A DNA stretch of 64,000 nucleotides from Streptomyces humicola (GTDB lineage Bacteria; Actinomycetota; Actinomycetes; Streptomycetales; Streptomycetaceae), in assembly GCF_024436035.1 (NCBI RefSeq), contig NZ_JANFNG010000012.1, positions 124,001 to 188,000 on the forward strand, written 5' to 3'. This document shows positions 1 to 14,553 of this stretch, in pieces. Each line of letters begins with the position of its first letter. Position 1 is the first letter of the stretch. Below the pieces are notes generated by a model, which made no database searches, was not told the origin of the DNA, and saw nothing but the letters and a program-made list of their open reading frames with translations. The position numbers were made by a program, and so were the translations under genes.

Positions 1-3000
1 AACTGGTGGTCCTCCGGTCCCGCGACCTACAACAACGTCACCCTCGGTGCTCCGGGCCTGTTCACCGGCAGCCCGGAGACCGCCGCCTCGTTCAACGGCA
101 CCAGCTCATACGTGTCGCTGCCGTCCACCACGATCTACAGCGGCCAGCTCTCGGCGAACTTCTCCGTCGAGCTGTGGTTCAAGACCTCCACAGCCGGTGA
201 GACGCTATTCAGCTACCAGTCCACCGCGATCGGCACCACACCCTCGGGGAGCTACACCCCGGCCCTGTACGTCGGCTCCGACGGCCACCTGTACGGGCAG
301 TGGTGGGATGACCTCCTCTCACCCATGAAGTCACCTGGCACGGTCAACGACGGCAACTGGCACCAGGTCGTGCTCACCGTAAACACCGACGGCGAGCAGA
401 CGCTGAATCTGGACGGCAAACAGGCCGACACCCGCACCGGGCAGCAGCTGGACTTCACCGGCCAGTCCTACGTCTCCATCGGCGCCGGCTATTTGTCCGG
501 GGCCTGGCCCGCACTGCCGTCGAACAACCCGCAGGGCTACTTCAACGGCGAGATAGCCGAGGTCTCCACCTTCAACCAGGCCCTCAACTCCACCACGGTG
601 GCGGCGCAGTACGCCGCCCGCGGCACCTCCAACGGCGCCACCCCGGTCACTGCCGTTACCGTGACCGACCCGACGGGCAAGACGCTCACTTACCGGTATG
701 ACCCGGACAACGACTCCCGGCTGATATCGGTCACCAACGCGCTCGGCTACACCACCTCCTACAGCTACGACACCGGCGGCTTCCAGAACACCGTCACCGA
801 CCCGGACGGCAACTACACCGCCACCACCTACAACGCGCGCGGGGACGTGCTGTCGCGCACCACGAGCGACATGCACGGCGACACCACCACCAGCTACTGG
901 AACTACCCGGCGTCCGGCACCTACAGCGTGACCGACCCGCGCAACGACGAGCCCACCTCCTACGCCGACCCGCGCTCGGCCAGCTCCACCGATACCACCT
1001 ACGCCACCACCTACACCTACTCCTCGACCGGAGACCCGCTCACCACGACCAACCCGGACGGGGATGTCACCACCAAGACCTACACGGCGGGAACCGAGTC
1101 CGCGATCGGCGGCGGCACCGAACCGCCAGGTCTGACGGCTTCCGCCAAGGACGCAAACGGCAATACCACCACCTACGCGTACGACAGCTCAGGCGACCTT
1201 GCCCAGGTGACCTCGCCCTCAGGGCTGAAGACCACCTACACCTTTGACAATCTCGGCCGCCGCCTCACCCAGACACAAGTCTCGGACACCTACCCGAACG
1301 GCGTCACCACGAGCTACACCTACGACGCCCAGGACCGCATGGTCACCCAGACGGGACCGGCCACCACGGACGCCGTCACCGGCACCACCCACACCCCGCA
1401 GACCACCTACACCTACGACGCCGACGGCAACACCACCTCCAAGGCCGTCGCCGACACCACCGGCAAGGACGCCACCCGCACCACGAGCTGGACGTACAAC
1501 GCCTACAACCAGGAGGCCTCGGTCACCGACCCCGCGGGCCGCGAGACCACCTACGGCTACGACGCCTACGGCAACCGCACCTCGGAGACCGACCCGAACG
1601 GCAACGCCTATACCTACGCCTACTCGCCGACCGGTGAGCTGCTCACCACGACGCTGACCAACTACACCGGCGACCCGGAAAACCCTTCCTCGCCCACCTC
1701 CTTGGTGGTGGACTCCAAGGCGTACGACCCGGCTGGCTGGGTGGCCTCTGACACCGACTCGATGGGGCGGACCACCGACTACTACTACAACTGGAACCAC
1801 CAGCTCATTCAGAGCTTCCTGGCCAACTTCCACAATCCGGGCGGCTCCACCACCAAGGTCCTCGAGCAGGACGGCTACGACGCGGCCGGTCACCTGATCG
1901 AGCAGCAGAAGACCGCCGCGCTGATCGAAACCGACTACACCGTCGACCCGGCCGGCCGCACCACGAAGGCCACTTTCGACCCCTACGGCCTGGACAAGAC
2001 CACCGCCAACAGCTACGACGCGGACGGCAACCTCACCTCGAAGGCCGTCACCGAAGGCAGCACCACCGAGCAGACCGACTACGCCTACGACTCCCTCGGC
2101 GATGTCACTTCCCAGACCGTCCACGACGGCTCCACCAACCTCGTCACCACCAACACCTACGACGAGCTCGGGCAGCTGACCTCCACCACCGACCCGCGCG
2201 GCAACGTCTCCGGCGGCACCCCGACGAACTACACCACCTCTTACGCCTACGACGCTGCCGGCCACCGGAGCCAGGTCACCGCGCCGACGGTGAACGCGGA
2301 GACCGACGGGGGCACCCCGCAGCAGGTCCACCCGATCACGCTGTACGGCTACGACACCTTCGGTGACCAGACTTCGGTCGACAATCCTGACGGCGACATC
2401 ACCACCTTCACCTACGACGCGGACAGCGAGAAGGTCGCCACCTCCGACCCGGCCTACACCCCGCCCGGGTCCAGCACCGCCATCACCCCCACCACCACGC
2501 AGCAGTACAACGTGGCCGGTCAGGTCAGCCAGGTCACCGACGGCAACGGCAACACCACCAGCTACACCTACGACCAGCTCGGCGACCTCGCCCAGGCGGT
2601 CCAGCCCGCGGTGAACGGCACCTCGCCGACCACCCACACCACCTACGACACCGACGGCGAGAAGCTGTCCGTCACCGACCCCACCGGCGCGCAGACGACC
2701 ACCACCTACGACGACCTCGGCCGCACCCTCACCGTCAGCCAAGTCGTCCGCCAGCCCTCCACCACCACCGACACCACCACCTACGGTTACGACGACGCGA
2801 ACAACCGCACCTCGATAACCCTGCCCGGCGGCGAGAAGTCCACCGCCACCTACGACACCGCCGGTGACCAGCTCACCACCACCGACCCGCTGAACAACAC
2901 CACCACCAACACCTACGACCTCGACGGTCGGCTGACCAAGACCACCCTCCCGGACGGCACCGCCACCACCGACACCTACGACCTCGCCGGACACCTCACC

Positions 3001-6000
3001 GCAACGGCAAACCTCGATGCCACCGGCAAGACCCTGGCCACCACCGGTTACGGCTACGACCCGGCAGGCAACAAGACCTCCGTCACCGACCCCAACGGCA
3101 ACACCACCACCTACACCTACGACGCCACCAACCTCCTGACCCAGCAGACCGAACCCGTTACGGCCACTGCCTCGATCACCACCACCTTCGGCTACGACGC
3201 CGCCGGCAACCGCACCCGCTACACCGACGGCAACGGCAACGCCACCATCGCCACCTACAACACCCTCGGCCTGCCCGAATCCACCATCCAGCCGAGCACT
3301 CCGACATACCCCAACGCCTCGGACCGCACCACCACCATCGCCTACGACGCCGACAGCAACCCCACGACCGTGACCCGCCCCGGCGGCGTCACCGTCGCAG
3401 CCAGCTACGACGCCGACGGCCGCCTGACCAGCCAGGCCGGCAGCGGAGCGGAAGCCGCCACGGCCACGCGCAGTTTCGGCTACGACGCCGACGGCCGCAC
3501 CACCTCCGTCAGCGCACCCAACGGCACCGACACCTTCACCTACGACGACCGCGGAAAGCTGCTCTCCGCCTCCGGCCCCTCCGGCACCGCCAGCTACGCC
3601 TACACCGCCGACGGCCAGATCGCCTCACGCACCGACAAGGCCGGAAGCACCAGCTACACCTACGACACCGACGGCCGCCTGGCCACCGCCACCGACCCGC
3701 TGACCAACGCCACCCTCACCTACAGCTACAACAACACCAGCCAGGTCACCGGCATCGCCTACGGCGGCAGCGCCGCCGGCCAGTCCTTCGGCTACGACCC
3801 GCAGCACCGGCTGACCAGCGACACTCTCACCGCCCCGGGCGGCACCACCGAAGCATCGATCGCCTACGGCTACGACGCCGATAGCCACGTCACCAACCAG
3901 ACCACCACCGGCACCGCCGCAGCCGCCGCCAACACCTATACCTACGACGACTCCGGTCGCCTCGCCTCCTGGAACAACGGCACCACCACCACCTACGGCT
4001 ACGACAACGCCGGCAACCGCACCAGCGTCACCACCGGCTCCACCACCACCAACTCCACCTACAACGCCCGTGACGAGCTGACCTCCAGCACCAACGGCGC
4101 CACGACCACCGACTACAGCTACACCGCCCGCGGCACCCTCTCCTCGGTCACAGGCGGCTCCACCACCGAAAACCTCACCTACGACGCCTTCGACCAACTC
4201 GCCACCGACGGCACCACCAGCTACACCCACGACGCCATCGGCCGCCTCGCCACCGCAGGCAGCAACACCTTCACCTACAACGACACCAGCAACACCGTCG
4301 TGTCCGACGGCACCGACACCTACGACCGAGGACCCGACGGGTCAATCCTCAGCGTCAGCAACGCAAGCGGCGCAGCCCTCGCCTTCACCGACCAGCACGA
4401 CGACCTGACCGCCACCTTCACCCCCACCGGCACCACCCTCGTCGGCTCGGTTGCCTACAACCCCTACGGCCAGAGCATCGCCACCACCGGCACCCAGCAC
4501 GACCTCGGCTACCAAGGCGGCTGGACCGATCCCACGACCAACCGCGTCGCCACCGCCAGCCGCTGGTACGACCCGGCCACCGGCAACTTCACCAGCCAAG
4601 ACCCCACCAACCAACCCCCCACCCCCTCCGTCAACGCCAACCCCTACACCTACGCCAACGACGACCCCACCGACGGCACGGACCCCACCGGACACGGCTT
4701 CTGGTCTTCGCTGGGAGGGCTGTTGGCGGATGCGGACCCGTTGTTCATACCGGGCGATCTCTACCAGCTATGGCAGGACGTCTCCGGAACTCCGGTGGAG
4801 GACGACTCCTGCACGGGCCTGTACGGAGTGGACTGCAGCCAGGCATTTGGAGTGCAGCAGGCGCCGGCCGTGACTGGCCTCGTCTACACCGGGGGCAACG
4901 ACTACTCCACCGGCGGTGACTCCTACGCAACACCGATCTCCGACGGCAGCGGCTACTACGGAGATGGATACGGCGACGGCTACGGGGACGGCTCCTCCGG
5001 ATACGGCAACGGTGGCGGTGGCTCCTACCAGCCGGTCGCCCCGCCCCCGCCTCCGCCGCCGACCGCGCTGATGGGCCTGGGCGAGTACCCAGGGGCTCGC
5101 CCCAGCGGCCAGGTTGACCACGCCAGTTCCTTGGTCAACCCCTGGGACGCGCTACGGCACGACGCGAAGCTGATCGGCACCCTCGGAAGCCTGTTCGACT
5201 CGAGCTATCAGCCCACCTCCAACGGCACCCCTGGCCAGAACGCAAACTCAGGCGGACTCGGCGGCGCCGGCGGCATCTTCGACTTCCTTTACCACGCATC
5301 CGGTGTATCGGACGTCGTCGACTGCGCCACCAACCCCACCTGGGGAAGCTGCGCTCAGGCCGCCGGCATGGTCGCCCTCACTATCGGCACCGGCGGCGAA
5401 GACGAAGTCGCCCTCCTCGGCGAAGGAGCACTAGAAGACGGCGCCGACCAAGGCGTGACCGACGCGATGGAAAGCGCATGCAGCTTCGCGCCGTCGACTC
5501 CCGTTCTGCTGGCCGATGGCAAGACCAAGCCCATCAGCAAGATCAAGCCAGGCGACCAAGTAGCGACCGGAAACCCCTCGACCGGCAAGCATCAAGGTTC
5601 ACAAACGGTAACGGCCCGAGTCGTCCACCACGACAACGACCTCGTCGACCTCACCATCCAAACCAGCTCCCACGACACGAGCGTCATCCACACCACCGCG
5701 AACCATCCCTTCTGGGATGACACCCTCCATGCGTGGGTCACGGCCGGAAACCTCAAGCCCGGTCAGAGCCTCGAGACCGCAAGCAACCACCACGTCCAGG
5801 TCATCGCCGTCCGCGCCCATCCTGGCGCTGCGGACATGGACAACCTGAGCGTCCAGCAACTGCACACGTACTATGTCCTCGCCGGCGCCACTCCGGTACT
5901 CGTACACAACGACGCATGCACTCTGCGGCCGGGTTTCGAACCGACTGAAGGTCGTGGTGGGGCCCCTGGTTCTCGGGCAGGAAAGAACTTCACGCCGGCG

Positions 6001-6252
6001 GGCAAGGATGAGGTGATTCAACGCAATGCTTACGATCAACCCGATGGAATCGCTCGATGCGCCAATCCGGAATGCAGCGTTGAGCTCCAAGTTCCGGTGA
6101 AATCTCAACGTGGGGTGACCCCTGACCCCAGAGAGGCGCAAGTGGATCACCAAGACCCCAGGTCGCTTGGTGGCTCAGGTGATCCCAGCAACGGGCAAGC
6201 GTTGTGTAGAGTGTGCAACAGGCAGAAGAGTGACGGCCCACAGCTTTGGTAG
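1..6252 (+). CDS. LamG-RHS polymorphic toxin with Hint domain and HNH nuclease tip (5' partial)
   Basis: The reading frame is open from the first base, so the N-terminus lies outside the window; at least 2083 residues remain. Counting from base 1, residues 1 to about 215 look like a LamG/concanavalin-type domain. From there to about 1560 are YD/RHS repeats (YTYDADGN-like), closing with an RHS-core signature ending DPTGH near 1561. A Gly/Tyr/Pro-rich linker follows. Residues 1827-1970 form a Hint (intein-like) pretoxin domain starting at a Cys (CSFAPSTPVLL) and ending VLVHN, the usual self-cleavage boundary. The last about 113 residues carry a CxxxxC pair (2020/2025), a DH pair (2049-2050) and a CRVCN...K segment near the end, typical of HNH nucleases. 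By family knowledge RHS proteins form a shell around a C-terminal toxin used against competitors. The nuclease activity is inferred. The next gene is its probable immunity protein. Confidence 0.93.
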   Translation, partial: NWWSSGPATYNNVTLGAPGLFTGSPETAASFNGTSSYVSLPSTTIYSGQLSANFSVELWFKTSTAGETLFSYQSTAIGTTPSGSYTPALYVGSDGHLYGQWWDDLLSPMKSPGTVNDGNWHQVVLTVNTDGEQTLNLDGKQADTRTGQQLDFTGQSYVSIGAGYLSGAWPALPSNNPQGYFNGEIAEVSTFNQALNSTTVAAQYAARGTSNGATPVTAVTVTDPTGKTLTYRYDPDNDSRLISVTNALGYTTSYSYDTGGFQNTVTDPDGNYTATTYNARGDVLSRTTSDMHGDTTTSYWNYPASGTYSVTDPRNDEPTSYADPRSASSTDTTYATTYTYSSTGDPLTTTNPDGDVTTKTYTAGTESAIGGGTEPPGLTASAKDANGNTTTYAYDSSGDLAQVTSPSGLKTTYTFDNLGRRLTQTQVSDTYPNGVTTSYTYDAQDRMVTQTGPATTDAVTGTTHTPQTTYTYDADGNTTSKAVADTTGKDATRTTSWTYNAYNQEASVTDPAGRETTYGYDAYGNRTSETDPNGNAYTYAYSPTGELLTTTLTNYTGDPENPSSPTSLVVDSKAYDPAGWVASDTDSMGRTTDYYYNWNHQLIQSFLANFHNPGGSTTKVLEQDGYDAAGHLIEQQKTAALIETDYTVDPAGRTTKATFDPYGLDKTTANSYDADGNLTSKAVTEGSTTEQTDYAYDSLGDVTSQTVHDGSTNLVTTNTYDELGQLTSTTDPRGNVSGGTPTNYTTSYAYDAAGHRSQVTAPTVNAETDGGTPQQVHPITLYGYDTFGDQTSVDNPDGDITTFTYDADSEKVATSDPAYTPPGSSTAITPTTTQQYNVAGQVSQVTDGNGNTTSYTYDQLGDLAQAVQPAVNGTSPTTHTTYDTDGEKLSVTDPTGAQTTTTYDDLGRTLTVSQVVRQPSTTTDTTTYGYDDANNRTSITLPGGEKSTATYDTAGDQLTTTDPLNNTTTNTYDLDGRLTKTTLPDGTATTDTYDLAGHLTATANLDATGKTLATTGYGYDPAGNKTSVTDPNGNTTTYTYDATNLLTQQTEPVTATASITTTFGYDAAGNRTRYTDGNGNATIATYNTLGLPESTIQPSTPTYPNASDRTTTIAYDADSNPTTVTRPGGVTVAASYDADGRLTSQAGSGAEAATATRSFGYDADGRTTSVSAPNGTDTFTYDDRGKLLSASGPSGTASYAYTADGQIASRTDKAGSTSYTYDTDGRLATATDPLTNATLTYSYNNTSQVTGIAYGGSAAGQSFGYDPQHRLTSDTLTAPGGTTEASIAYGYDADSHVTNQTTTGTAAAAANTYTYDDSGRLASWNNGTTTTYGYDNAGNRTSVTTGSTTTNSTYNARDELTSSTNGATTTDYSYTARGTLSSVTGGSTTENLTYDAFDQLATDGTTSYTHDAIGRLATAGSNTFTYNDTSNTVVSDGTDTYDRGPDGSILSVSNASGAALAFTDQHDDLTATFTPTGTTLVGSVAYNPYGQSIATTGTQHDLGYQGGWTDPTTNRVATASRWYDPATGNFTSQDPTNQPPTPSVNANPYTYANDDPTDGTDPTGHGFWSSLGGLLADADPLFIPGDLYQLWQDVSGTPVEDDSCTGLYGVDCSQAFGVQQAPAVTGLVYTGGNDYSTGGDSYATPISDGSGYYGDGYGDGYGDGSSGYGNGGGGSYQPVAPPPPPPPTALMGLGEYPGARPSGQVDHASSLVNPWDALRHDAKLIGTLGSLFDSSYQPTSNGTPGQNANSGGLGGAGGIFDFLYHASGVSDVVDCATNPTWGSCAQAAGMVALTIGTGGEDEVALLGEGALEDGADQGVTDAMESACSFAPSTPVLLADGKTKPISKIKPGDQVATGNPSTGKHQGSQTVTARVVHHDNDLVDLTIQTSSHDTSVIHTTANHPFWDDTLHAWVTAGNLKPGQSLETASNHHVQVIAVRAHPGAADMDNLSVQQLHTYYVLAGATPVLVHNDACTLRPGFEPTEGRGGAPGSRAGKNFTPAGKDEVIQRNAYDQPDGIARCANPECSVELQVPVKSQRGVTPDPREAQVDHQDPRSLGGSGDPSNGQALCRVCNRQKSDGPQLW

Positions 6253-6274
6253 GTGGGGACGGGAGCAGTGAGTA

Positions 6275-6754
6275 GTGACGCGGCGCGATTCGACTGTAAT
6301 TCACATTCGCTTGCATCGAGACGGAAATTGGCCCCCCTTTAATTCAGAGGAAGTGGAGGCAGTAGAAGTCGGAGACCACAAATACAGGCTCGAGTCTCCT
6401 CCTTCCTTCGCCCGACGGTTGGCAGTAGGTGATGTAGTTCGGGTGGCCCACCACGGTTCCTCGCAGGGTCTGTGGGTGGAAGAGGTGCTTGAGTGGGGCG
6501 GCCACTCAACAATCCAGGTCATCACCTTCAAGGTCGCCGGTCGCGATGTCGAGAAGGAGCTGAAGGACGGTGCTGCCTCATTGAACTGCTCAATAAAGCA
6601 GACGTCACTCGAAGGCCTGTTCTCGATCGACGTTCCCGGTGGCGTGGGCTATGCGCCTCTAAGGGAGTTCTTGGAACGTGGCACAAAGTGCGGACTGTGG
6701 GATTATCAGGAGGCCGCTATTTCCCGAATTCACGACGATGGATTTGGTCGGTAG
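6275..6754 (+). CDS. DUF4265 protein, probable immunity protein for the RHS nuclease
   Basis: A 159-residue soluble protein with a GTG start 22 bp after the toxin stop. It has features I associate with DUF4265: an early NWPPF segment, VEVGDHKYRLESPPSFAR, then GDVVRV, GHSTIQVI and a late VGYAPLREFLERG. No signal peptide or membrane segment is visible, so it should act in the cytoplasm. Position directly behind a toxin tip is the standard place for the cognate immunity gene, and DUF4265 genes are often found next to polymorphic toxins. That it neutralises this HNH tip is inferred from position. Its last bases overlap the start of the next, decayed gene. Confidence 0.8.
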   Translation: MTRRDSTVIHIRLHRDGNWPPFNSEEVEAVEVGDHKYRLESPPSFARRLAVGDVVRVAHHGSSQGLWVEEVLEWGGHSTIQVITFKVAGRDVEKELKDGAASLNCSIKQTSLEGLFSIDVPGGVGYAPLREFLERGTKCGLWDYQEAAISRIHDDGFGR

Positions 6755-7365
6755 AGATCTTCCTCGCCTCGCCAGCCAGATTGCAGACGTGGGCTCAACA
6801 GATAACGACGTCTCAGCCCGAGCTACTGCAGCGATTTATGCCAGTCGGTGGCGACAGCGAAGCCACCTGGAAGATCGCTGCACCGCCGACTGCCTGCGCT
6901 TGACTGTTCCGCACCTGGTCGCGTTCATCGAGGGCGGGGAGCTGCCCGAGCCTGCGGTGCCCGAGACCCGGTGGGAGTGGCGCGAGCGGCTGCCCATCCT
7001 GTCCACCCTGCTCGGCTACTTCCATCAGGACGCCGACGCTGATCATCCCGGCGCCGACGGTGGAGGGTACCCGGACTACGAGGCCATCGTCGCGGACTAC
7101 TTCGCCACCACTGGGAGTACCAGGCCGCCGCCGCGGTCGCCGAGATCAGCGAACTGCTGGAGATGTGCCTGCAGGAGGCCCAACTTGCCAAGGCCATGAC
7201 CGCACTCGGCGCTGGGCTGCTCCTGCCTCCGGGGTTGTCACAGGGGGCTGGCTGTCGGCGATGGCCGGATACCTGACCCGGCGTCTGATAGAGGCGGGCT
7301 ACCAGCGTCCGGAAGGGCCGAACCCCGCCTACCCGCTGGACGACAAGCGCGCGTTCACGCAGTGA
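6738..7365 (+). pseudogene. CdiI-type immunity protein, frameshifted
   Basis: From the ATG at 6738 one frame reads MDLVGRDLPRLASQ... and then SARATAAIYASRW, TADCLRLTVPHLVAFIEGG and LLGYFHQDADAD, a layout I recognise from contact-dependent-inhibition immunity proteins (the LxGxYFHQD core is characteristic). Near 7112 the family-like sequence moves to another frame (HWEYQAAAAVAEISELLEMC), and near 7240 it moves again (GGWLSAMAGYLTRRLIEAG), ending at 7365. Two frameshifts make it a likely pseudogene unless they are assembly errors. Its place behind the DUF4265 gene fits an array of spare immunity genes that often trails an RHS toxin. Family assignment is moderate, by pattern only. Confidence 0.55.
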
Positions 7366-7369
7366 CGCC

Positions 7370-7870
7370 ATGGCGAAGAAGCAAGCTCCGCTGAAGAACC
7401 GGCCTGGCCCGGCGCCTGACCACCCCAAATGTAGGCGTGGTGGCCGCGGCACTGCGACCGGCGGACGAAGACCGATCCTTGTTCGACGTCTGCTGGGAGG
7501 TCCTGAACCCGGTCTGCCCCTTGGCCCTCGCGGATGCTGACGAGCTGACCGAGCGCCTCACCGATCGGCCCCGTTCGGGTTGGACCAGGCCACTGGTTGG
7601 GTCGCCGGCATCCTCGGCACCGGACTCTCCTACCCATCCAGCAGTGACCCGCCCACCGACCCGAGGCTGCGGGCCCTGCAAGACGAGGTGATCGCGGCAC
7701 TCGGGCCGGAGACGGTGTGGTACGCCAACGGCGACCATCCGCTGTCGTCTCTCCGCCCGTGCCGGTCGGAGCGTTGCTGGAGCCCGATCACCCGCGCGAC
7801 GATCGACCTCGTGGTCGCCGCGCGGGGCAACGGGTTCGACCTCGTACTGGCGCGGGTCGACGAGGCCTGA
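7370..7870 (+). pseudogene. decayed gene of unknown function
   Basis: An ATG at 7370 opens MAKKQAPLKNRPG..., and protein-like sequence then continues in a second frame (VVAAALRPADEDRSLFDVCWE..., ending about 7575) and a third (GWVAGILGTGLSYPSS, RLRALQDEVIAALGPETVW, and a final ATIDLVVAARGNGFDLVLARVDEA to 7870). Third-position GC and protein-like composition follow these segments through two frame changes, which suggests a single degenerated gene. I do not recognise the family. Being downstream of toxin and immunity genes it may be another cargo gene of that locus, but that is only positional. Confidence 0.4.
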
Positions 7871-8758
7871 GGCCCGGCCGCGGACACATGGTCGTGCTCT
7901 TCGAGCCGTTTCCGGTGTCTACACCGCCGAGTCGGGATACGTGACGACGACGTAGCTGGTCAGGGATGGGACGGGGGCTGGCGGGCGGTCCGTCCGCATG
8001 CTGGATCCGTGCTGGATCGTGTCCCGATACGGCCGATGGATGCAGGTCGTAGCGGAGTCGTTGATGTTCCGCTTCAACGTTTAATGCCTGTCCGGCGTCC
8101 CTCGATAGGGAGAAGTCGCAGGTCAAGGGCGGTGGGTGGAGGCGTCATGGACGGTATTCGCTGCGTTCCGCAGAACGTTGTGGCTGGATTCTGCGGGATG
8201 ATCTGACGTCACGTCAGTCAAATTTGCGCAGGTCGGGACGTTGTTGTTGGTGCCGCTACGGCATGTTCGGAATACGGACGCTGGATTCTTGCTGGATGGG
8301 CGTGATCTCCAAAAGGTCCACTTTCGGGCCGCTCTCCGGGGCAAGGGCGCTGGAGGGGGTCGGTCTGGAATGACCAGCCGTCGTAGGTCTGGGAACCGCC
8401 CAGCGGCTGCGGCTGCGCGGTTTGCCCCGGGAGCGGGTCCTCGACCTGCTCCCGGGGAGGGGACGTTGCGCTCACACGTGCGTGAGTTGCCTTTTCCTAT
8501 AGGTAGGGGCGGCTTCGTTGCCGTGGGTTGTCTGAGCTCGCTCGCCGCCCTGCAGCCGCAGGCCGCCCGGTTTACGTAGTGCGTTTTTGTGACCGGACAC
8601 CGGGAGGCTGGCCGTTCCATTGCTGGCGCCGCCGGGTCTGGCCGGTAGGGCAGGCCGCAGAGGTCTTCGGACGTTCTCGATGCCCTCGTCGGCGAGCGCG
8701 GTGTGGAAGTCGGCCGGGTAGACACGTTGCGGTCCCGGAGGGGTGGATCCGGTTCCCG
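7871..8758. other. long gene-free stretch carrying short repeat elements
   Basis: No frame here gives a convincing protein; the open frames are GC-rich by-products. The stretch holds three copies or partial copies of a GCTGGAT...GCTGGAT motif (about 8000, 8183 and 8279). The middle one is followed by the palindrome CTGACG-TCA-CGTCAG. The part nearest 8758 lies downstream of the minus-strand CHAT gene and shows no clear T-rich terminator. Confidence 0.5.
8183..8217. repeat. GCTGGAT + CTGACG-N3-CGTCAG element, copy 1
   Basis: GCTGGATTCTGCGGGAT is followed after a few bases by a perfect 15-base dyad with 6-bp arms and a 3-base centre at 8203-8217. The same arrangement, diverged, is found twice near 37.65-37.76 kb. 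It lies outside any gene. It could be a repressor or activator site, or a small dispersed repeat. Confidence 0.5.
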
Positions 8759-11032
8759 TCATCCGCCGACGTGCACGTGCGGAGCCCATAGGCTGGGCAG
8801 TTCGGGGTACATCCGCCGCAGTTGCATCACCGCGCGGCGCAGTGCGGCCGCGCTGCGCTCGGGGTCGATCGCGCCGGAGTCCTCGTCGCTCCGCATCTGC
8901 GCATACACCGTTCGTACCAGCCGGACCGCGACCAGGTCGTTAACCGTCCACTGCGATCCGATGACGTTATGGAAGCCGGCGAGATGTATCGCCGTCGACA
9001 AGGTCAGCGGCTCGTCCATCAGCGCGGAGATGGGACGGAACGCCGTGCTGCACGCCGACAGATAGGCGAGGCGCGAACGCGGCAGCCTCAACGCGGTCAG
9101 GTCACGGACCGTCAGTCCGCCGCCGGGGTCGGTCGGCAGCAGCAACCGGCTTTCGCCGGGGTTGTCCAGGTCCAGTACCCCGTGGCAGGCGAAGTGCACC
9201 ACCGGGTGGTGAGCCAGGTGCTCCTTCACCGCCTGCGCGGTGGCGTCCTCGCCCACCAGCGGCTTGGTCGCCACCAGCCGGCGGAGCACATCGATCTCCC
9301 GGTCGATTCCGGGGAGTCCGTCCTGCGGTGCGGCGACCAGCAGGAGCGGGGCCTGCGCCTCGCCGGGTGAAGCGGGGGCCGGTTCCCGCAGCAGACTGCG
9401 GAGGGTCGGGGCATAGGACGGGACGACGTGGTCGAGCACGGATTCGCCCGTGGCTCCGGGGCTTCCTGCGGCGTGCAGCGGCAGATGACCGGTGAACCCG
9501 CAGGGTATCCACCACAGCCGCGGGAGCTCTCGTCCCTCCCTGTCGGCGGCCGGGGCGCCGGTGAGAAATCCGGCCGCTTCGAGCGCGGGCCGGGCCACAC
9601 GAGTCCACAGCCATTCCAGGAACTCGCGCAGATCTTCCTCACCGGTCCGGCGCGCCTCCTGGCCTCTGCCGCCGATGGCGAACGCGACCGCTTTGAGCAT
9701 GCGGCTCGCCTGGTTGGTGAACTCCTCACGCGTCACTTCAGGGAGGGGTACGACGGTGATGGTGCCGCTCCGCAGAACGATGCAATCGCTGCGGTAGGCA
9801 CTGGTGTTGACGAACACCACAGTGCGCTCGCCGAGCCCCGCGATCAGCTCCCGTATCGGAGGCGGCTCGAGGAACCCGGGGAGGATGTCGCGTATGGCGC
9901 GGAGCGTCTCATTCCAGGAGATCACCGTGGACTGGTGGCGGGTCGCCGGACGTTGCCCGTCGAACCCGTCCCGAAGGTGCTCGAATCTCTCCGCCAGCGC
10001 GGGGTCGAGTGTGCGCAGCCGGACCAGATCGTCGTCGGCACCGGTCAACTGCTCCGCCAGTACGGCTCGTCCGTACTCCAGCAGCTCCAGCGCCTTCTCC
10101 GGCTGCCCCGCCTGCAGCGCGCAGCCGGCGCCCTCGGCGGCGAGTGCCCACAGGCGGTTCAGCAGGGCGGCCTGATCCGCGGGGCCCAGCCGTACCAGGG
10201 CCAGCAGCGGCAGTAACTCAACCGCCTGGGTGAAGCCCTGCAACGCGCGGTCCCACTCGCCGAGTTCGGCACGCGCCCTGCCCCATGCATAGGCCGCCGT
10301 GACCCGGCTCTCCGGTTTTGCGTTGGGCTGGGCGGCCGCCTGCTCGTAGAGGGTGCAGGCGCCGGGCGCGAGCGGGCTGTCGGCCCTGCCGTCGAGCAGT
10401 CCTCGTCCCACCTTGATCGCCTCGGTGAGATAGGGGTCGGAATCGTCCCCGGACCGCTCGGCGCGCAGCCGCAGCGCATGGATTAGCCCGGACAGGTACA
10501 GTCTGCGGTCCTTGTCCTCGACGGCGGCCGGATCCGTGTCGTGGACCGTCCGCCATCCCTCGACAGCCGCCCGCCGGTGTGCCACGGACTCATCGAGATC
10601 CGCGGTGTCCCCGGTGCGCAGATACCGGTCGGTGAGCAGCACCGCCAGCTTGTGCAGAGCGAGCGGTCGGTCCGGATCCTCCGCCGGTATCTCCTCGACG
10701 CAGTCCCGTGCCATCGCGGCGGCCTCGTCCAGCAGAGCGTCATCGCCGGTCACCCGGCCGAGACGGGCGAGGTCCGTGGCGACGTTGAGCCGGTACTTGG
10801 CGTGGAAGGGGTCGTCTTCCGGGACGATCGTCACGACGGTACGGCTGGCGTCGAGCGCCGCAAGCAGATCGTCGATGTCGCCGGCGCGCACGAATCGGCG
10901 CACGAGCGCCGCGCTGAGCGTCGACAGCAGGTGATGGCGGTCGGGATCGCCGTCCGGGATCAGTCCATCCAGGTCCTGGAGCCTATCGATGGTCTCGTCG
11001 AGCGCGGCGCCGTCCGGCTCCTCGATCTCCAG
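8759..11032 (-). CDS. TPR-CHAT caspase-like protease (CATRA-type conflict protein)
   Basis: A protein of about 757 residues: an alpha-helical, TPR-like N-terminal two thirds (repeated ALHKLAVLLTDRYLRTGD-type helices) and a C-terminal CHAT peptidase domain. The CHAT catalytic pair is visible as VVHFACHG (His) and YLSACSTA (Cys), with the family's later HLAGFHNVIGSQW segment. CHAT proteases are clostripain/caspase-like enzymes used in bacterial conflict and programmed death. The start is unresolved. The frame stays open to 11293 but has no good start before there and would then overlap the divergent gene deeply. A better start (MDEQARAMHRR, preceded by a GAAGGAAGAG ribosome site) lies in another frame near 11098. 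I therefore place the 5' edge where family-like sequence begins. A frameshift at the 5' end is possible. Confidence 0.75.
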   Translation of the reverse strand: MEIEEPDGAALDETIDRLQDLDGLIPDGDPDRHHLLSTLSAALVRRFVRAGDIDDLLAALDASRTVVTIVPEDDPFHAKYRLNVATDLARLGRVTGDDALLDEAAAMARDCVEEIPAEDPDRPLALHKLAVLLTDRYLRTGDTADLDESVAHRRAAVEGWRTVHDTDPAAVEDKDRRLYLSGLIHALRLRAERSGDDSDPYLTEAIKVGRGLLDGRADSPLAPGACTLYEQAAAQPNAKPESRVTAAYAWGRARAELGEWDRALQGFTQAVELLPLLALVRLGPADQAALLNRLWALAAEGAGCALQAGQPEKALELLEYGRAVLAEQLTGADDDLVRLRTLDPALAERFEHLRDGFDGQRPATRHQSTVISWNETLRAIRDILPGFLEPPPIRELIAGLGERTVVFVNTSAYRSDCIVLRSGTITVVPLPEVTREEFTNQASRMLKAVAFAIGGRGQEARRTGEEDLREFLEWLWTRVARPALEAAGFLTGAPAADREGRELPRLWWIPCGFTGHLPLHAAGSPGATGESVLDHVVPSYAPTLRSLLREPAPASPGEAQAPLLLVAAPQDGLPGIDREIDVLRRLVATKPLVGEDATAQAVKEHLAHHPVVHFACHGVLDLDNPGESRLLLPTDPGGGLTVRDLTALRLPRSRLAYLSACSTAFRPISALMDEPLTLSTAIHLAGFHNVIGSQWTVNDLVAVRLVRTVYAQMRSDEDSGAIDPERSAAALRRAVMQLRRMYPELPSLWAPHVHVGG

Positions 11033-11034
11033 AA

Positions 11035-12321
11035 ATGACGACGCCGGTGCGCGGGAGCCCGGGGGAGCCGGCGGTGCATAGCCCGAGCCTGCTCGTCCAT
11101 CTCTTCCTTCGTGCCGACCGTGTCGAGCACCGAGACGCGCCGGACCGCTCCTACCTGGAGGCGGTATGGGAGGGCTGCGGACGGCTCGGGATGGAGCGCG
11201 CGATCCCTGGCCGGTTGGAGCCGCTCGAGCTGCCCGCGGCGCTGCCGCCCGGCCGCGGGAGCACGGTACGGGTCCTGGCGGCGAGGGAGGCACCCGGCGC
11301 GGGGGTCCGGCAGGCCTTCGTCTTCCGCTCTCATGACGTCGTCGGTCTCACCGCGCTGCTCGCGCCCTCTGACGGGCGCGGCTGGCGGGAGTTGGAGGCG
11401 ATATGGGACCGGCACTGCCCGGCGCCGGGGGACGATGTGGTGCCGCTGGGCGGCGTACGGCTGTACCGGGCGCTGGGCGGCTCGCGATCGCTGCGCGGCG
11501 GCGGAGCGCGTCGGCTGACCGCGGACCTGCGCGGGTCGGCGCCGCCGCACCCGGCCGGCACCCGGGCGGGATGGAGCGGGCCCTGCGCTGCGGCGCACGA
11601 CGGAATCCTGCTGTGGGAGCAGCGCATCGGTCCGGAGGCCCGACTGCAGGGTGACCGCCGGCTGGTGGTCGTCGGTCACCGCAGCAGCGAGGCGCGTCTC
11701 GACGGCTGGACATGGATCGAAGGAGAGCCCGGGCTCACCGCGCTCGGCCGCTATCTGCTGCATGCCGCCAAACTCCGCTATGAAGCGCGGGTGTACGCCG
11801 CGGGCGCTGGGTTCAGGGGGCTGCGTGCCGAGGCCGAGGAGGTGCTCGACGATCTGATGCGGCTGCACAGCCGGCCGCCGGAGCGGATCGAGGAGTTCCT
11901 CGCCGCCGCACGCGGTCTCGCCCGGCTGCAGGCGGGCGGGGAAGGCCTGATCACCGCGGCCACCCGGCTGCGTGCACTGCGCAGGACAGCGGAGATCGCC
12001 GCCGCGAACATGACTGCCGCGGTGGGGGAGGAGTGGTTCCGTGATCCGGCCGGACCCTTCGCGCAGGACCGGCGCACAGCGCAGTGGCTCACGGCACAGC
12101 TTGACGACGACGTGCTCTATCTGCAGGCGACGAGCGACCGGGCTCGGGACCGACGGCTGCAGCGGCCCCGCCTACCGCAACTACGAGAGCTTCATCCGCA
12201 TCCACCTGCTCCCCCCGCTTGGGCAGCAAGACGGCGGCGGGTGTGGAGCGAAAAGACATCGAAGCCCTCGTCGCGGAACTGTCCAGGCGGCTCGCACCCA
12301 GCACCGTGTGCGACCGGATGA
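11035..12321 (+). CDS. CATRA system CHAT/TPR-associated protein with chimeric 3' end
   Basis: The frame gives 428 residues. To about residue 372 it matches what I remember of the CASPASE/TPR-repeat-associated (BN6_48550-type) family: SLLVHLFLRADR near the start, LTALLAPSDGRGWRELE, LDGWTWIEGEPGLTALGRYLLHAAKLRYE and a closing AQWLTAQLDDDVLYLQA. After DRARDRRL (about 12157) the frame becomes Pro/Arg-rich nonsense because the DNA there encodes an integrase fragment in other frames. The natural C-terminus was therefore replaced or trimmed by a few residues. The gene is divergent from, and abuts, the CHAT gene, leaving almost no room for promoters. The function of this family is not established; a role as partner or regulator of the CHAT protease is inferred from linkage. 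Confidence 0.65.
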   Translation: MTTPVRGSPGEPAVHSPSLLVHLFLRADRVEHRDAPDRSYLEAVWEGCGRLGMERAIPGRLEPLELPAALPPGRGSTVRVLAAREAPGAGVRQAFVFRSHDVVGLTALLAPSDGRGWRELEAIWDRHCPAPGDDVVPLGGVRLYRALGGSRSLRGGGARRLTADLRGSAPPHPAGTRAGWSGPCAAAHDGILLWEQRIGPEARLQGDRRLVVVGHRSSEARLDGWTWIEGEPGLTALGRYLLHAAKLRYEARVYAAGAGFRGLRAEAEEVLDDLMRLHSRPPERIEEFLAAARGLARLQAGGEGLITAATRLRALRRTAEIAAANMTAAVGEEWFRDPAGPFAQDRRTAQWLTAQLDDDVLYLQATSDRARDRRLQRPRLPQLRELHPHPPAPPAWAARRRRVWSEKTSKPSSRNCPGGSHPAPCATG

Positions 12322-12375
12322 AAACGGTCAAACACCTCTTCCAGAACCATGGTGGAAGAGAGGCGGCGGGCGGAT
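12164..12375 (+). pseudogene. tyrosine-recombinase (integrase) core-binding-domain remnant
   Basis: Starting at 12164, GPAYRNYESFIRIHLLPP is read in one frame and, after a one-base shift near 12213, LGSKTAAGVERKDIEALVAE, LSRRLAPSTVCDRMKTVKHLFQ follow in another. This is the SAM-like N-terminal core-binding domain of phage/ICE tyrosine integrases. The catalytic domain is absent. It sits exactly where the CATRA partner loses its own coding sequence, so this is the scar of an old insertion or recombination. It overlaps the chimeric 3' end of the preceding frame. Confidence 0.6.
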
Positions 12376-12395
12376 GACCTCGCCGCACTGAACGC

Positions 12396-12815
12396 ATGGA
12401 CCCGCGCAGGGTGATCGCCGTGGGCCTGGTGCTGCTAGGTCTCGGCATGGGCCTGACGGGAGCCGCGCACGGCGCAGTTCTGATCGGCTTGACAGTCGTG
12501 CTGTGGACTTTCGCGGAGATCACCTACGCCTCGATCGCCAACGCCTATCCTGGCGAATTCTCGCCCCCGCACCTGCGGGGTCGGTATCGGGGAGCGGATG
12601 GCATCGCCCACACTCTCGCCGGAGCCCTGGGACCCGCCGTGGGCGGATTCCTGTACTCCTTCTCCGCCCCTGTTCACTGGTTGACCTGTGCTGCTGCGGC
12701 CGTATTGGGTGCCCTGCTCATCCTCGGAGCGAAACCCGGTAGACAGCATACGGTCCTTGCCGGAATGCCCGCATCGACGGGTGCCGCAGAGCCCGTCTCC
12801 GAGCTGGGCAGCTAG
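12396..12815 (+). pseudogene. MFS transporter C-terminal fragment
   Basis: The 139-residue frame MDPRRVIAVGLVLLG... has about four hydrophobic helices, including VLLGLGMGLTGAAHG and LTVVLWTFAEITYASIANAY, and the segment HLRGRYRGADGIAHTLAGALGPAVGGFLYS, which corresponds to helices 9-12 of drug-efflux MFS transporters. The N-terminal two thirds are missing, replaced upstream by integrase debris. A third of a transporter is unlikely to function, so I call it a remnant although the frame itself is intact. Confidence 0.65.
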
Positions 12816-12928
12816 CGGCCGAGACCGCTGGCTGCCGAAAGACCACTGGAATCGGCGCCGCATTGACGAGAAAGTTCGTCCGCGGCGCCACCGTTTCCGC
12901 CTCCAATGTGAAGTGAGTTGAAACAGTC

Positions 12929-13235
12929 ATGACGATCGAGTCGACCAGCATTTCCGCAGCACACCGGATCGACATCCCGTCAGCCACCGATGAACCGGCC
13001 GCGTATGTCACCGCGCTGCTCGACGTCGCATCCGTTCGATGTGATCGCCCAAACCCCGGTCCGTGCGAAGGCGCTGTGCCTGGACACGCCGACGGAACTG
13101 CTGGAGCGGGAGCCGGAGCCCGGTGAGTGGCCAGCTGCCTACGGCATCGGGCACCTCTTCGACGTCGACGTGGTGTGCGGCTTCCGCTGGCGCCTGGTGG
13201 CCACGGAAGACGACCCCGTCTACCCCCGCCGATAG
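12929..13235 (+). pseudogene. DinB-family protein remnant, frameshifted and 3'-truncated
   Basis: MTIESTSISAAHRIDIPS... ALLD is read from the ATG at 12929. After a frame change near 13023 the text continues HPFDVIAQTP, TELLEREPEPGEWPAAYGIG, HLFDVDVVCGFRWRLVATED and stops at 13235. This is the beginning of a DinB/DUF664-type four-helix protein (PxPGxWSxxEVxxHLxDxE pattern with the metal-site His kept in HLFD). The second half of the family fold is absent. The frameshift and truncation make it a pseudogene. Confidence 0.5.
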
Positions 13236-13459
13236 TCAGCCGAAGCACACATAGCTGGGGGTGACACCTGAAACAGCTGACACTCCCCGCAACGACTGAC
13301 TCGAGGACTCACCATCATCAAAGGCCCTGGACAACATAAAACGGATCCCATTCAACAACATTGAGTCATTCAGTGAGCTGAGAGACAATCGATTCTGATC
13401 GAATACGAACCGATCGAGCCCGTGAAGACGGACATGCTTCTCTGTGGTGGCACACCGAC

Positions 13460-14346: not shown

Positions 14347-14553
14347 TCACCCAATCGAGTGACCACGTCGGACCCGGTCTTCCTTGGCCAGGCCCGGGCT
14401 CCACCCACGACCTGACCACCGCATCATCGAGGCGCGGAGGTGGAGGCCGGCGAGGTAGCTCTCGGGCGTCTTGTCATATCGAGTCGTGCTGCCACGCCAG
14501 GCCTTCAGATTGTTGATCAGGCGCTCGACGGTGTTCTGCTCCTTGTAGGCCAA
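14347..14553 (-). pseudogene. IS5-type DDE transposase C-terminal fragment
   Basis: The minus frame reads AYKEQNTVERLINNLKAWRG, TTRYDKTPESYLAGLHLRAS: the conserved end of IS5-family transposases, including the catalytic-region ERxxNxLK signature. Everything upstream of the glutamate region is missing. The open frame begins at the junction with the resolvase fragment that follows on the plus strand, so two mobile-element scraps are joined near 14549. Confidence 0.65.

Follow-up and report, generated by a model that had tools for sequence, protein, structure and literature searches.

Conflict systems of the CATRA type are represented in the databases by the Pfam families CATRA-N (PF20269), CATRA-C (PF20270) and CATASP (PF20271) and by the NCBIfam entry BN6_48550_fam, the main description reportedly being that of Burroughs and Aravind in J Bacteriol in 2020. 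When intact, the head-to-head subtype consists of a gene for a TPR-CHAT cysteine protease that is divergent from a CATASP-CATRA pair with overlapping frames, and CATRA is built of a fixed two-domain core followed by an exchangeable module (membrane-spanning, TIR-like, glycosyltransferase, phosphorylase or cyclase-like). The TPR array would sense an invader or damage and switch on the protease, which through CATASP and CATRA would release or activate the C-terminal module and cause cell arrest or death; a role of CATRA loci in abortive infection is likewise presumed. No experimental test of any CATRA system was found in the literature searched, a scope that left out most subscription journals. 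The locus described here lies at the left of a 64,000-nucleotide (nt) stretch from Streptomyces humicola (contig NZ_JANFNG010000012.1, positions 124,001 to 188,000), the whole of which is called the window. Like the CATRA systems, this locus has CATRA-N and CATRA-C in full and a TPR-CHAT gene linked to them; it differs from them in having no effector, no CATASP and a CHAT gene without its 5' end. It is very probably a head-to-head CATASP-CATRA-CHAT conflict locus in which two or more rearrangements have disabled the system but left the cores and protease dyad intact, and it is most likely not a novel system but the dead remains of one of a known kind.

Both genes were identified by profile searches. 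The CATRA product matches CATRA-N (E 8.3e-41, profile positions 2-203 of 203) and CATRA-C (E 9.3e-36, 2-137 of 137) in Pfam, both far above cut-off, and matches BN6_48550_fam at full length (1-344 of 344, E 7.5e-92) up to residue 371. The family placement of this partner was checked in both Pfam and NCBIfam and is CATRA in each, and the proposal of an earlier note, made from the sequence alone, that this is a CATRA-type locus with head-to-head CHAT and CATRA genes is borne out. The divergent open reading frame (ORF) contains a CHAT domain (E 5.9e-45, profile 2-288 of 289) with both catalytic residues in place and ends in a natural C-terminus (...LWAPHVHVGG). The only Pfam TPR match passing E 1e-3 is TPR_2 at residues 333-362 (E 2.6e-4, below its cut-off). 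The other described relative is Csx29, the TPR-CHAT protein of Craspase (type III-E CRISPR), with which the window protein shares the TPR and CHAT protease parts and matching His and Cys motifs. The window CHAT matches the solved Csx29 with an E of 1e-6; it differs in falling far below the cut-off of 300 of the NCBIfam entry NF041237 (E 2.5e-13, 49.8 bits) and in having CATRA as its gene partner. Neither window protein (CHAT, CATRA) matched the PADLOC-DB models at E 0.01.

Homologous loci were collected from three sources. CATRA-C matches were found in 27 of the 394 genomes of a family sample, including the window's own (26 above the family cut-off), and CATRA-N matches in 27 of the 293 genomes of an order sample sharing genomes with the family sample (22 above cut-off). 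A collection of 84,980 species scanned with one peptide pattern, built from a seven-row CATRA alignment, provided 31 CATRA loci. With the weak matches left out (L026-L028 for CATRA-C and L079-L083 for CATRA-N), 58 distinct CATRA loci were analysed (23 + 8 + 31, less 4 retrieved twice). A phylum-wide search added only weak matches (1.9e-5 to 7.6e-4), in 4 of 396 genomes, that of the window not counted. The locus had no tblastn match in plasmids and phages, and blastn of 8400-13400 against plasmids had none.

The closest intact relative is the locus L091 of genome G787, an order-level relative, which carries the CHAT and CATRA genes in the same head-to-head orientation. The window CATRA is sister to that of L091 with support of 99/96 in a 57-row tree, and the window CHAT is sister to its L091 counterpart with support of 100/100 in a 42-row tree; the trees excluded duplicated loci, the L106 CATRA, cores below about 230 amino acids (aa) and CHATs below about 380 aa. 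Because each gene is sister to its L091 counterpart, the CATRA-CHAT pair was probably inherited together. Identity to L091 by tblastn is 42% for CATRA and 40% for CHAT, and over the tree columns 43% and 46%, respectively. L091 differs from the window in three parts. Its CATRA is 567 aa long and ends in a 186-aa tail with three hydrophobic segments, of which the window CATRA has no equivalent. A CATASP gene absent from the window lies between its CHAT and CATRA genes at 6904-7236 (Pfam E 1.3e-14), with its end overlapping the CATRA start (ATG 7220); reading the 395 bp before the L091 CATRA as a non-coding spacer was therefore wrong. Its CHAT is about 115 residues longer at the N-terminus, with a coding signature from an estimated start near GTG 6824.

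The first of these differences is located at joint 2. Similarity of the window CATRA to L091 ends at residue 372 (nt 12150) by tblastn. The DNA at 12160-12385 (about 225 bp), which is read in two successive frames, is 77-80% identical to two ORFs from two other genomes that match phage-integrase families. The integrase identity came from these longer ORFs; the short pieces themselves had no match in Pfam or PHROGs and no convincing one in plasmids. The integrase debris at which the earlier note saw the partner lose its last residues is therefore real, but the loss is not one of last residues: it covers a whole module, which is at least 130 aa in relatives. The CATRA core is followed by a C-terminal module in every one of the 58 homologous frames extending to its end (56 contain the whole core, and two only its later part, namely L118 and the latter half of L106, whose frame is broken; the first half of L106, L092 and L093 were set aside). 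The tails measure 132 aa or more, apart from one of 91 aa located at a contig end. Assigned by motifs and hydropathy, 27 of the tails have at least two hydrophobic segments, 23 are TIR-like, 3 are cyclase-like and 5 are others. Five tails were also searched alone in Pfam, giving CAP12-PCTIR_TIR in L034 and in L115 (the latter classed among the others), PNP_UDP_1 in L046, GT4-conflict in L089 (E 2.1e-129) and no Pfam family for the cyclase-like tail of L035. PMC8195603 assigns GT4 domains to the effector position of these conflict systems, and the GT4-conflict domain of L089 is at the C-terminus of CATRA. The absence of the module from the window CATRA is best read as a secondary loss.

Further architectures were seen in the same survey. 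A cyclase-like motif (DVERYSSR and similar) occurs in the tails of L032, L035, L122 and L115, with the TIR domain of L115 lying behind it. The CATRA gene of Saccharothrix deserti (L106:902-1926) is split between two frames, through decay or sequencing error. In L092 and L093 the match covers about the first two thirds of the core before breaking off, and the frames continue for about 500 aa, with a CHAT gene and an opposite-strand CATASP-like frame as neighbours; these genes perhaps represent a further CATRA architecture.

The second and third differences from L091 are found at joint 1. Against L091 the window lacks the whole CATASP gene, the spacer and the front of CHAT with its start and about 115 residues of the N-terminus, which add up to about 740 bp. 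With a profile built up from the L091 and L046 CATASP sequences, a CATASP-like frame was found no more than 800 nt upstream and on the same strand as CATRA in 53 of 60 homologous genes, and directly upstream in 7 of 10 head-to-head loci; the window has none. All seven CATASP-like genes checked in Pfam were above the CATASP cut-off, and an eighth, from L046, also passed. The window frame 10490-11038 has no CATASP match in Pfam. Across the source genome no CATASP was found above the cut-off, with positive controls in G365 and G787 recovered; a weak CATASP-like stretch about 96 kb from the locus scored E 0.007 and 19 bits against a cut-off of 29. The CATRA ATG at 11035 overlaps a TGA at 11036-11038 (ATGA), an arrangement also seen where a CATASP upstream is coupled to CATRA, and a hint that the last codons of the lost CATASP may be preserved here.

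The CHAT gene is cut at the same joint. The only in-frame ATG, GTG or TTG upstream of the TPR homology is GTG 11293, which lies within antisense CATRA, and there is none in frame between 11293 and 10903. Residues 1-90 of the frame, mostly antisense CATRA, show no coding signature (second-position GC 0.73-0.90, third 0.53-0.63), and the signature is clear from residue 91 (0.37 and 0.83, respectively), with the switch at about 11024. The alignment to L091 is confident from residue 116 and can be followed by eye from about residue 91 (L091 residue 256). The start of the CHAT gene is thus indeed unclear, as had been noted; the better start suggested in another frame found no support and is rejected, as both the homology and the coding signature sit in the CHAT frame. 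A promoter consensus scan found no match in the window and is uninformative, since L091 also lacks one and chance alone would give practically none.

The back-to-back start with practically no gap is also confirmed, with CHAT coding to about 11026 and CATRA from 11035, yet this abutment is not native. As called, the ORFs 8759-11293 and 11035-12321 overlap, which could be taken for an ordinary compact head-to-head pair with a naturally tail-less partner. This explanation is scarcely credible: the CHAT ORF opens with approximately 86 codons of antisense CATRA that carry no coding signature, and the distance from the CHAT core to the start of the CATRA core is 684 nt in the window against 1794-4727 nt in the 10 head-to-head loci, none of which is equally compact. 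The tail survey and the missing CATASP contradict it as well. An overlapping head-to-head design as the native state is ruled out by the missing start, the distances, the codon signature and the missing CATASP. Intact loci with the same overlap and the same C-terminus were sought and none was found, as none of the 58 frames ends alike. The features of the locus are collected in Table 1.

Table 1. Features of the locus and its immediate surroundings, in window positions
Feature	Position	Strand	Basis
TPR-CHAT ORF as called, 844 aa	8759-11293	-	ORF list
TPR-CHAT gene lacking its 5' end, coding signature over about 755 codons	8759..11026	-	Pfam, tblastn to L091, codon GC
CHAT protease domain, residues 557-843	8765..9625	-	Pfam
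Catalytic Cys codon, C748 (YLSACSTA)	9050..9052	-	Aligned with Csx29 motif
Catalytic His codon, H704 (HFACHG)	9182..9184	-	Aligned with Csx29 CHG motif
Remaining TPR-like repeats, array cut N-terminally	10364..11023	-	By eye and similarity to L091
Joint 1, CHAT coding abuts CATRA start	11024..11037		Start scan, distances, tblastn, codon GC, CATASP profile
CATRA ORF as called	11035-12321	+	ORF list, Pfam
CATRA core (CATRA-N and CATRA-C), 372 residues	11035..12150	+	Pfam, NCBIfam, tblastn, predicted structure
CATRA-N domain, residues 19-230	11089..11724	+	Pfam
CATRA-C domain, residues 236-370	11740..12144	+	Pfam
Joint 2, CATRA homology stops and integrase DNA starts	12150..12160		tblastn, DNA comparison, tail survey
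About 57 residues without homology on CATRA ORF (artefact tail)	12151..12321	+	Frame and tail comparison
Phage-integrase N-terminal fragment, frame change near 12226	12160..12385	+	DNA identity, integrase domains
MFS transporter fragment, profile 61-180 of 347	12396..12815	+	Pfam

Two joints within 1.2 kb of each other raise the question of an assembly artefact, in which the genome would carry an intact locus and the joints would be mis-joined contig pieces. The source genome is a 7.07-Mb draft of 78 contigs, and the locus is absent from the only other genome sampled from the genus, in which no CATRA was found. Against this, a profile search found a single CATRA gene in the source genome, and neither a stray CATRA tail, among the 150 of 229 candidates scored, nor a CATASP above the cut-off was recovered. 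The integrase debris is present in a single copy and is therefore not the type of repeat that makes assemblers jump, which also counts against the artefact. An artefact is accordingly considered highly improbable.

Several observations nevertheless weigh against a disabled locus. Both cores are open and unbroken with a coding-type codon composition and the protease dyad is kept, so residual function is possible, and the joints were read from the assembly only. Seven of the 60 homologous CATRA genes have no upstream CATASP (L034, L089, L092, L093, L111, L112 and L121), and in three of the 10 head-to-head loci (L089, L092 and L093) the CATASP-like frame is on the opposite strand. Internal starts at GTG 10903 or at ATG 10714, the latter behind a GAGG, could yield a shorter CHAT protein, and TPR-CHAT proteins of about 738 aa occur in the tandem loci L029 and L030. 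A short CHAT alone is for this reason no proof of truncation; the argument is based on the missing start, the missing CATASP, the abutting genes and the sister locus. The sizes of the losses are estimates because L091 is only 40-46% identical.

These observations could be accommodated by a shortened working variant, in which the tail-less CATRA serves as adaptor to an effector whose gene lies elsewhere and CHAT starts at GTG 10903, ATG 10714 or CTG 11032. The intact cores and CHAT dyad, the open frames with coding composition as far as both joints and the position of the GAGG 8 nt upstream of ATG 10714 agree with such a variant. It is nonetheless unlikely, as none of the 58 CATRA frames is tail-less and CATRA ends where foreign integrase DNA has been joined on, not at an evolved stop. 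The genome search also speaks against it, having provided no CATASP above the cut-off and, with a profile built from twelve membrane tails, no convincing membrane tail elsewhere in the source genome (best E 0.138, taken as chance, with 150 of 229 candidates scored). A long shot is that the tail-less CATRA core and the shortened CHAT have been retained because they still function, for instance as a dominant-negative guard that would bind intact CATRA/CHAT complexes arriving with mobile elements and block them.

The disabled head-to-head locus thus remains the preferred interpretation. Joint 1 would have taken the front of the CHAT gene together with CATASP, and joint 2, against the integrase fragment, would have taken the whole effector module of CATRA. 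On this model the window locus cannot act, because an effector, CATASP and a proper start for CHAT are all lacking, and it is presumably inactive. The earlier suspicion of a disabled or recently rearranged system is supported, with damage exceeding what had been described since CATASP is also missing; that the losses are recent is suggested by the open frames and the kept dyad.

Structural prediction of the window CATRA core with AlphaFold gave a mean pLDDT (predicted local distance difference test) of 88.9 and a pTM (predicted template modelling score) of 0.88. The model consists of an alpha/beta N-domain followed by a helical bundle, the last helix of which (343-371) reaches the break. A fold search with the whole core returned Mrs2 (Z 10.8), CorA (10.3) and ZntB (10.1) with 105-114 residues aligned, values in the range of common helical bundles. 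The N-domain folded and searched alone had a best Z of 5.4, to folds other than the CorA type. The whole-core comparison may suggest a CorA/Mrs2/ZntB-like scaffold, which is not borne out by the N-domain and is too weak to claim. No convincing relative with a solved structure was found by sequence, the best hit being Cdc37 with an E of 0.02. An alternative CATRA start is read at GTG 11074, with GGGGGAG at 11061-11067 upstream.

The position of CHAT relative to CATRA varies across the family, with head-to-head, tandem upstream, tandem downstream and convergent layouts. A CHAT match by profile was obtained in 42 of the 58 loci and 10 were counted as head-to-head (L046, L086 and L090, with distant or fragmentary CHAT matches, were not), counts that are lower bounds because divergent CHATs, that of L033 among them, escape the profile. 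The number of layout changes on the trees was 12 against a mean of 18.6 for shuffled labels, and 11 against 19.8, with none of 200 shuffles as low in each case. Near-copies inflate this overall clustering, and the tandem-upstream layout alone does not cluster. Two loci of the TM type (L033 and L047) have a NUDIX-domain gene nearby, with the TPR-CHAT of L033 lying between CATRA and NUDIX; the NUDIX gene is a possible further component of this subtype.

The surroundings of the locus contain other fragments. The stretch 112-6754 begins with a large YD-repeat (Rhs-type) ORF, the C-terminal end of which presumably is an HNH nuclease, judging from its motif. A DUF4265 protein (6275-6754, E 3.7e-20) comes after it in the position of an immunity gene. 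On the other side of the CHAT gene, 6678-8725 is filled with short overlapping frames of weak coding signature and looks decayed; no convincing match was found for four of its ORFs in Pfam or for two in PHROGs. A partial DinB-like fragment (12990-13235, E 9e-4, below cut-off) and a transposase fragment (14347-14553, PHROG 4716, E 9.8e-6), the latter further mobile-element debris, lie near the locus.

For the family as a whole, the comparison set shows how the system is built, with a CHAT protease, a small CATASP overlapping CATRA, a constant core of 372 residues and exchangeable effectors. L091 is an intact head-to-head reference locus that is usable for laboratory work. The overlapping ORFs and the tail-less partner of the window should not be treated by annotators as a natural design.

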